A stretch of DNA of 64,000 nt from Candidatus Bathyarchaeota archaeon (GTDB lineage: Archaea; Thermoproteota; CALKCG01; B24; DRYS01), in assembly GCA_025058595.1 (NCBI GenBank), contig JANXEK010000006.1:1-64000 (forward strand). The letters run 5' to 3'. Positions 34,855 through 38,232 of this stretch are shown here, piece after piece; position 1 is the first letter of the stretch; every line of letters begins with the position of its first letter. The notes below the pieces were generated by a model. The model was not told the DNA's origin. It ran no database searches and saw only the letters and a program-made list of their open reading frames with translations. A program made the translations under genes and the position numbers.

Positions 34855-35747
34855 GTTTAAGGTTAAGCCTTAAGGTATACCCCCGATTAGAGGATGAAGA
34901 TTTCAAGGTACTCGCAGCGATAGAGTTAGGCATGTCTAGCCATGCTTATACACCTATAGATTACGTAGCTAAGCTTAGCGGTCTTCACGAGAAAGAATTA
35001 TCCTATAGACTACGTAAACTGAATAAGCTTAAGGTGATTCTATCCAGCCGTTCGCCTCAACCTAGCTTCGCTATAAACTCCATCGCATACGACTGCCTAG
35101 CTTTACGTTCACTGGTTAAATCCGGGGTGATCGAAGCTATCGGCAGTCCTCTAGCTGAAGGAAAAGAATCTGATGTATATCTAGGGTTATCGTCTGATGG
35201 GGCGAAATTGGTTCTCAAATTCCTACGTATAGGTCGTATAAGCTTTAGACAGACGAGGAGGTTAAGGAGTTATATAGAGCAGCGTGATCATATCTCATGG
35301 CTATACCAATGTAGGTTAGCCGCTTTTAAGGAGTATGAAGCCATATCTAGCCTATATAAACTCGGTATCAAAGTACCTAAACCTATAGCTTACAATCGTC
35401 ATCTTCTAGTATCTAGCTTCTTCGATGGGATCGAACTTGCGTTTTGTAGAGAGTTGGAGCAGCCCGATAAGATATTAGCAGACATCCTCGATGAGGTTAG
35501 AAGAGTATATATGGAAGCATATATGATTCATTGCGATTTGAATCAATACAACGTTCTCGTATCATCTGAAGGTGATATATGCATAATAGATTGGCCTCAA
35601 TATATAACGTCTAGCCATCCAGAAGCGTTAAACTATCTTAAAAGAGATATAAGAAACATATCTTCCTTCTTCAGAAGGAAGTATGATATACATCTAGATA
35701 TCGATAGAGCAGTAAACTATGTTACAGGTCTATCCTCTACGCTATAG
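34851..35747 (+). CDS. rio2: RIO2-type serine/threonine protein kinase
   Basis: N-terminal wHTH, GSPLAEGKESDVYLGL, HCDLNQYNVLV, CIIDWPQYI. TTG start overlapping the helicase end. Confidence 0.92.
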   Translation: MSLRLSLKVYPRLEDEDFKVLAAIELGMSSHAYTPIDYVAKLSGLHEKELSYRLRKLNKLKVILSSRSPQPSFAINSIAYDCLALRSLVKSGVIEAIGSPLAEGKESDVYLGLSSDGAKLVLKFLRIGRISFRQTRRLRSYIEQRDHISWLYQCRLAAFKEYEAISSLYKLGIKVPKPIAYNRHLLVSSFFDGIELAFCRELEQPDKILADILDEVRRVYMEAYMIHCDLNQYNVLVSSEGDICIIDWPQYITSSHPEALNYLKRDIRNISSFFRRKYDIHLDIDRAVNYVTGLSSTL

Positions 35748-36991
35748 GATACTTCCCTTCTGCTAGCTCTATGCAGAACTTATCTATATTCTCCAGCTCT
35801 TTAGATACGCAATCTTCTACATCTTCTTCTAAACTCTTTATATCCAATCCCTCATCGGTAATCAACTGGACAGCAGCTATCTTAGGCTCGTTTATAGGCT
35901 CCCCTATCTGACTTAAAAGCCAGACATACACTTCTTGTAAGCCGCTTAAACTAGTATAGATCTTATTAGCTATCCTATGCGTGAGAACATTGTATATCTT
36001 ACCTATGTGGGAAACAGGATTCTTACCGGCTGCAGCTTCGGAACTTATAGGTCTATTGAGGGGTATAACTCCGTTCACCCTATTCCCTCTACCAACCTGA
36101 CCCGAATCCGCGCTATCGGCGGATGTACCTAAGACGGTCAGATATAATCCATCTATACCTCTCCCCATCCTATCTAGAGTATTCAGTTTAACTTCGATCC
36201 TATCGAAGTACCCTTTATGGAAGAGAACCTCCCTTAACTCCTCTAAAACCTCTTCCTTCCTTCTGAAATATGTAGATTCACAATCTATGAATTTATCTAT
36301 GAAAGCCATCGATATCGTGAGATCAAGTTTATCCTCGTATCTCAACCCCATAACTTTAATATCTTCACCAGTTTCAGGATGTCTCCTCTTAAATTCTGGA
36401 GAGTTTAGGAACCTCTCAACCTCATAGACTATACGTTCAACCCTACTCATGGGAGCATAACCAACCGCTGCCGATGTATCGTTAGCCTCTAAATACCTTC
36501 CCCCTCTAGCGAATATATCCCTCAGAGCTTGTGATCCGGGTTTAATCTCTACTTGATATACCACGTGAATATCTGGATCTACGAATCTCATATTACGTTT
36601 AAACCATTCTTTAGCGGCGGAGACAGCTATCTCATCTACCGGTATAACCTCCTCTTCGACGCTCCATGTAGCTCTATCGCCAAAGATCAGCTTCATAGGC
36701 CTCTTAATCAAGCCGCCGCCAAACCTATTCTCCGCCTCTCCTGCGGCTAATAGACCTTTATCGAGGTTATGATGGAGTATCTGCCCATACCTCTTTATAT
36801 ATTCGAAACTAAGTCTAACAGATACACTATCCATTATAGCATCGCATATATAATCCGGGTGGCCTAAGCCTATGAGGGCTATCTAACCTCATACGAGGCT
36901 AGATAGCTTTCCTCTCGACTATCTCTACTCTACGCTTCTCTACCGGCTCCCCCCTCAACCTTTCTACAACTATCTTAGGCATACCAGTCAT
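35737..36991 (-). CDS. mat: S-adenosylmethionine synthetase, archaeal MAT; two exons (36909-36991 and 35737-36871) separated by a 37-nt BHB-type intron
   Basis: Exon 1 translates [27 protein letters not shown](K); exon 2 resumes (K)[24 protein letters not shown]...[23 protein letters not shown]. Spliced length 1218 nt (405 aa), normal for archaeal MAT. ORF track starts late at 36834. Confidence 0.9.
36872..36908 (-). other. Candidate archaeal bulge-helix-bulge intron in MAT pre-mRNA (37 nt)
   Basis: Minus strand: ...GUCGA-GAGG-AA|A-GCUAUCUAGCCUC-GUAU-GAGGUUAGAUAGC-CCUC-AU|A-GGCUUAGGCC... Central 4-bp helix GAGG/CCUC, two 3-nt bulges AAA and AUA, 13-bp intron hairpin. Contains in-frame TAG, length not divisible by 3; removal restores VERKGLGHPD. 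Confidence 0.85.
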
Positions 36992-37064: not shown

Positions 37065-37310
37065 CTATGCCTCGAACGATATGTAGAGTATATTACTTCC
37101 TCTTATAAAGATCCTACCGTAATTAACCCTCAATTCACCATCCCTATACTCCTCAGCGTCGTCGAGTAGTAGGTTCATATACGCGTCACATGAAACTACG
37201 ACACCAGAGTACTCTATGTTATTCTTAAGTTTAATCTTTACACGGGAATTTTTAAGCTTAGAAAGTACGTTCATAGGTTTAACTCCTGAAGCCATCATCT
37301 CACCTTTCAC
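37065..37310 (-). CDS. Lsm/Sm-like archaeal protein
   Basis: LKNSRVKIKLKNNIEYSGVVVSCDAYMNLLLDDAEEY...IFIRGSNILYISFEA (Sm1/Sm2 motifs). Confidence 0.93.
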   Translation of the reverse strand: MKGEMMASGVKPMNVLSKLKNSRVKIKLKNNIEYSGVVVSCDAYMNLLLDDAEEYRDGELRVNYGRIFIRGSNILYISFEA

Positions 37311-37380: not shown

Positions 37381-38232
37381 CTAGCTAGGCTTCGAAGGCT
37401 TCTCTATAAGCTTTCTCTTATAGAGAACCTCCCCTCTACGGTTATGTGGAGATCTATACACGGTATCCATCCCCTTCTCGATCTCTCTAGCCTCAGAAGC
37501 CTGTCTAGCGGCATAACTCATAAGCTCGTGCGCGGCGGCTACTATAGACGTATACTCAGTCCACTCCTCTATCTTGAAGCATCCTTCGACCGTTAGATCG
37601 GCAACCTTAACGGCGGCTTCGTATGCAGCTATAGCTTTAGCCCGAGCGTAGGGGTTAGCGAATTGACCTGCTTCGACTGCTACCTTCCTATCCACTATGA
37701 TCCTAGGTAGCTTCAACTCTTCCCCCCTCTTCAAACAATCTATCACCTTATCTAGCTCCATCTGTATAACCCTGAACGCACCTGTAACTGCTAGAACCTT
37801 TATTAGATCAGCGTTGTATATAGCCATCTCGACAGGATCCAGAAACTCTCTCCTAGCACCTATCATAGAGTCTCCGAGAACTATTATATACCCATACCCA
37901 CCCTCCTCAAGCTCCTTAATAATCCTCCTAGAAGGAGCATCTGATACGACGATAGTAGGTATACCAGCATCTCTAAGTAGACTCCTCATCCTCCTAGGTC
38001 CAGGTAGGCCGGCGTTAGGACTTACCGCTATAGCTAAAACTGGTTTGAACTGTATAAGAGCTTTAGCAACCTCCTCTGCATCATCCTCCCCCATCTTAGC
38101 GCCCGAAGAAACTATCCTAACGCTTAAATCATCCCTATCAGCCCTCTCATCGAGTAGATACTCTATCAACGGAGATGAAGCTATACATCCAAGCTTACCA
38201 AACCCTATCCTTATAACCCCGCTCATACCCAC
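37381..38232 (-). CDS. mtd: F420-dependent methylene-tetrahydromethanopterin dehydrogenase
   Basis: IRIGFGKLGCIASSPLIEYLLDERADRDDLSVRIVSSGAKMG, PNAGLPGPRRMRSLL, FANPYARAKAIAAYEAA. Confidence 0.92.
   Translation of the reverse strand: MGMSGVIRIGFGKLGCIASSPLIEYLLDERADRDDLSVRIVSSGAKMGEDDAEEVAKALIQFKPVLAIAVSPNAGLPGPRRMRSLLRDAGIPTIVVSDAPSRRIIKELEEGGYGYIIVLGDSMIGARREFLDPVEMAIYNADLIKVLAVTGAFRVIQMELDKVIDCLKRGEELKLPRIIVDRKVAVEAGQFANPYARAKAIAAYEAAVKVADLTVEGCFKIEEWTEYTSIVAAAHELMSYAARQASEAREIEKGMDTVYRSPHNRRGEVLYKRKLIEKPSKPS

Follow-up and report, generated by a model that had tools for sequence, protein, structure and literature searches.

The first 64,000 nucleotides (nt) of contig JANXEK010000006.1 from a Candidatus Bathyarchaeota archaeon (hereafter the window) contain, on the minus strand at 35737-36991, a split gene for a methionine adenosyltransferase (MAT) of the archaeal type. 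The 37 nt between its two parts (36872-36908) are, with high confidence, a pre-mRNA intron of the archaeal bulge-helix-bulge (BHB), or tRNA, type. It interrupts the one MAT gene that was found, and would be excised by an (alpha beta)2 EndA, with RtcB joining the exons. This view is based on the sequence of the insert, on how it is conserved among relatives and on the genes of the splicing enzymes; one mechanism accounts for every version of the insert.

As judged from its translation, exon 1 (36909-36991) holds 27 codons and two nucleotides. It ends in ...VEIVERK and is followed by an in-frame TAG three codons inside the insert. Exon 2 (35737-36871, stop codon included) opens with GLGHPD, 37 nt downstream and in a different frame, and matches PF01941 with 510.8 bits over profile positions 25-395. 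An earlier reading of the window, made from the sequence alone (the sequence-only reading), had given these coordinates and frames correctly, and the 405-residue MAT that it expected is indeed obtained once 36872-36908 is removed. The removal restores the conserved protein precisely. The spliced product passes the NCBIfam equivalog model for methionine adenosyltransferase, NF003363 (632 bits, cut-off 557, profile positions 3-402), and solved archaeal MATs align with it almost end to end. The start codon is the ATG at either 36991 or 36982; the latter gives 402 residues, as in the relative G001, and in the closest relative the only in-frame start is at the equivalent of 36982. Since the differences between relatives fall mostly at third codon positions in both exons, the two are, on this pattern of substitution, under purifying selection as one protein. 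A second intact MAT, which would have spoken against splicing, was also sought; the interrupted gene is the one PF01941 match in the genome (1.45 Mb, 66 contigs, 91.6% complete), the missing part of which could still hold another. The relative G001 (93% complete) likewise has a single match.

The fold noted in the sequence-only reading was reproduced exactly. It reads GAGG-AAA-(13 bp)-CCUC-AUA, with a 4-bp central helix, two 3-nt bulges and one G-U pair. The central helix is formed by GAGG of exon 1 (36911-36914) and CCUC of the intron (36874-36877), which are paired in all five genomes that carry the insert. The intron hairpin (36878-36907) consists of a 13-bp stem, 36907-36895 with 36890-36878, closed by the loop GUAU at 36894-36891. 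The geometry and the restored reading frame place the first predicted cut at 36909/36908, within the 5' bulge AAA (36908-36910), and the geometry places the second at 36872/36871, within the 3' bulge AUA (36871-36873). Cutting after the second nucleotide of each bulge gives the exact exon joint. After splicing, the third A of the 3' bulge would complete the Lys codon at its third position, and it is A in five of five genomes. The insert is unusually stable (z of -3.96 and -4.43; none of 200 shuffles was as stable). When both strands of the window were scanned for a BHB whose removal repairs an open reading frame, 36872-36908 came far ahead, with 14 inner pairs (one loop-closing G-U among them) against 10 for the next best.

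We infer cleavage, ligation and circularisation along the following lines. The MAT transcript would fold into the BHB, and the heterotetrameric (alpha beta)2 EndA would cleave both 3-nt bulges behind their second nucleotide. RtcB would then ligate GAGAGGAA to AGGCUUAGG, restoring ...VEIVERK-GLGHPD..., and the 37-nt intron would be released, probably as a circle. On an unspliced mRNA, translation would stop three codons into the intron.

Comparative evidence comes from the class to which the genome belongs, a small lineage of uncultured archaea represented in the collection by seven genomes, including 'Ca. Bathyarchaeota archaeon B24' (G005, contig LUCB01000001.1). Six of the seven have a MAT match, and in five of these six the insert lies at the identical nucleotide. 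It measures 37 nt in the genome studied here, 35 in G001, 33 in both G002 and G004, and 31 in G005; modulo 3 this gives 1, 2, 0, 0 and 1, thus covering all three phases. The sixth, G003, is without the intron and reads straight through the site. Four other genomes thus share this precise insertion with stems that covary, and one relative is intron-less; this is not the random frameshift decay that the sequence-only reading had named as its refutation. The stem sequences diverge, yet the pairing is kept: across five rows from two families, which are not five independent events, 94.5% of cells are paired and both sides have changed in 10 pairs. None of 500 shuffles reached the observed covariation score, and the signal was lost when the partner was slid by one to three columns. 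In each of the five genomes, none of the nine pairs adjacent to the bulges is broken. In the MAT tree, the class is monophyletic and adjoins intron-less Bathyarchaeota, and G003 groups, with modest support (81/81), with the intron-bearing G002, G004 and G005. On this grouping, a single gain followed by a later loss in G003 is the favoured history.

The enzymes for such a reaction are also encoded. Two EndA paralogues and RtcB are present in each genome of the class except G006, which is 72% complete. Alignment of the EndA alpha of the genome studied here with Aeropyrum pernix EndA (3p1z) shows that it has the HAP-motif His as well as Lys44 and Arg46 (numbered on that alignment), which belong to a loop specific to Crenarchaea. 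This loop and its lysine are known to confer cleavage of relaxed BHB forms (PMC6379350, PMC12397907). This His has no counterpart in the aligned second paralogue, which fits a beta subunit with a structural role. From a catalytic alpha subunit with both the His and the relaxed-specificity loop, and a partner without the His, an (alpha beta)2 enzyme is predicted that would suit BHB motifs whose outer helix is weak. Thus, an EndA competent for relaxed motifs is encoded together with RtcB, as far as presence and key residues tell. In G004, the RtcB gene (L142/L143, G004:C46:40697-43471) is split over a 1002-residue open frame that is intein-like; the ligase required for splicing would there need protein splicing itself.

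The cbf5 gene provides an internal positive control. A cbf5 intron is found in all seven genomes of the class, at the classical crenarchaeal site, which is the very site of the experimentally confirmed crenarchaeal intron (PMC2738675). In the genome studied here it lies at L150:1525-1604 (G000:C7, ~33.7 kb) and has canonical BHB geometry (CCCU-AGA, hairpin, GGGG-AUA-UCCC). A simple BHB and frame-repair rule applied to ~575 kb (the window, ~396 kb of G001 and loci of the class) gave only MAT and cbf5 as sensible hits; two further candidates (L169, L171) were rejected as adjacent overlapping genes. The class lies outside the two orders given for the cbf5 intron in the 2009 survey (PMC2738675). 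Short cbf5 frames were also seen in several other genomes of the phylum, and there is a hint that this intron may be more widespread than reported. Taken together, the precise insertion in relatives, the splicing enzymes and the cbf5 intron lend support to the BHB intron that was proposed from the sequence; those checks of the sequence-only reading that were run all turned out in its favour.

Some observations weigh against it. The outer exon-exon helix is weak, as had been noted at the outset, and it is variable, being predicted in some genomes only, which would make the motif a relaxed one. Such forms can be cleaved by the (alpha beta)2 EndA (PMC6379350), and the loop of the alpha subunit described above is linked to them. 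For G002 and G005, shuffled sequences match the total folding energy although the BHB core pairs, and the case there therefore rests on geometry and position. Moreover, all the genomes of the class are apparently drafts, and five of the seven are broken into dozens to hundreds of contigs.

The draft, metagenomic nature of the assemblies is what a sequencing or assembly artefact, or the frameshift decay of a pseudogene, would draw upon. Such an error would have to strike five separate genomes at one site with differing, covarying inserts, in a gene that is the only MAT match and has both exons under selection, and it can practically be dismissed. Equally hard to credit is a translated insert, in which stop read-through or a programmed frameshift would lengthen MAT by about 11 residues. 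The frame is kept in G002 and G004 apart from one TAA; however, the genome studied here, G001 and G005 would additionally need frame shifts of differing sign, no conserved slippery site is present, and the extra residues would adjoin the invariant GHPD motif. That the ribosome bypasses the hairpin in the manner of phage T4 gene 60, with the RNA never spliced, is very improbable too. Such bypassing would suit a short hairpin-bearing gap in which a stop follows closely on the presumed take-off codon, but the take-off and landing triplets do not match: in three of five genomes the latter (ATA, ACA, AGA) is unlike the AAA take-off codon. Further, hopping gives no role to the 4-bp helix and the 3-nt bulges, which are conserved, and EndA and a cbf5 BHB intron are present in the class.

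A somewhat better, though still unlikely, alternative accepts the BHB intron but supposes that it is retained because regulated splicing limits the supply of S-adenosylmethionine (SAM), with EndA and RtcB as the control. The intron is kept in two families and apparently lost in G003, and every version of the insert has an early in-frame stop; such a stop in 31-37 nt is, however, near chance, and neutral retention suffices. Were it true, a tRNA-type splicing switch would act on a core metabolic enzyme. Other classes of intervening sequence were rejected. The inserts, of 31-37 nt and with stops, are no intein, in contrast to the one in the MAT of G007; and 37 nt is too short for a self-splicing group I or II intron, with no Rfam match at the site (the scan of the window gave tRNA-Val only).

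Outside the class, a first survey of 61 genomes found an incomplete MAT only in G007 (intein) and G013 (contig edge). In a survey of 397 genomes of the phylum Thermoproteota, the motif is uninterrupted in all of the ~150 best-scoring matches listed; more than 100 lower-scoring matches lie beyond these, and a rare further case could be missed. No BHB intron at the MAT site was present in the genomes with two MAT matches that were checked. Interruptions elsewhere in the phylum were set aside as contig ends, second copies, splits at other positions (e.g. G340) or the intein of G007. In G007 (L037:1109-3586, contig JASEET010000004.1), the intein-like insert at GHPDYI|C carries LAGLIDADG and a weak intein-splicing match; it sits seven codons from the intron site, so that one MAT motif hosts two kinds of intervening sequence. 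Further, 124 of the 397 genomes, many of them near-complete, are without any PF01941 match, which may be read as a divergent MAT or another source of SAM.

Directly upstream of MAT, also on the minus strand, lie the genes of an LSm protein (37065-37310) and a methylene-tetrahydromethanopterin dehydrogenase (mtd, 37381-38232). On account of the nearby mtd, methyl-coenzyme M reductase (MCR) was sought in the class and none was found; mtd is thus present there without MCR.

The proposed MAT intron shares with the introns of archaeal tRNA and rRNA the BHB geometry, the cut after the second bulge nucleotide, and EndA with a ligase; in contrast to these, its exons are coding sequence, with no tRNA body to guide the enzyme. 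In eukaryotes, the unconventional splicing of HAC1/XBP1 mRNA is carried out by IRE1 in a signal-regulated manner, whereas EndA is the enzyme proposed for MAT. What the two would have in common is an mRNA spliced by protein enzymes and a tRNA-type ligase (ligases: PMC4090602). The BHB sites of HVO_1309 in Haloferax volcanii (PMC7714728) are an instance of EndA acting on mRNA, as proposed here, but they lie in the 5' untranslated region (UTR), while in MAT the coding sequence is interrupted. According to a count of 2020, the cbf5 intron was the only other BHB intron of an archaeal mRNA besides this 5'-UTR case (PMC7714728); predictions in other archaeal genes are cited in PMC2738675.

The closest parallel is the cbf5 pre-mRNA intron of Desulfurococcales and Sulfolobales (Watanabe 2002; Yokobori 2009, PMC2738675), where relaxed motifs are common and loss is lineage-specific, as would hold for MAT. 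No sequence relation was seen between the two introns. The host in MAT is a metabolic enzyme and not an RNA-modifying one, the lineage is another, and the intron is predicted from sequence, that of cbf5 known from cDNA. Nothing joining BHB introns with archaeal SAM synthetase was found in the open literature, a search that did not extend to subscription papers and preprints. Thus, as far as the open literature shows, the kind of intron is known, and the host gene and the lineage are new. Annotation pipelines will call such essential genes truncated or frameshifted, and the gain and loss of introns in archaeal mRNAs becomes testable by comparison. With a lineage-bound gain and a likely loss, the MAT case suggests that ordinary protein genes, too, are open to colonisation by BHB introns. 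The gene of this essential metabolic enzyme would be the second host after cbf5, the only confirmed coding-sequence case in the open literature, and in both the intron occupies the most conserved motif.
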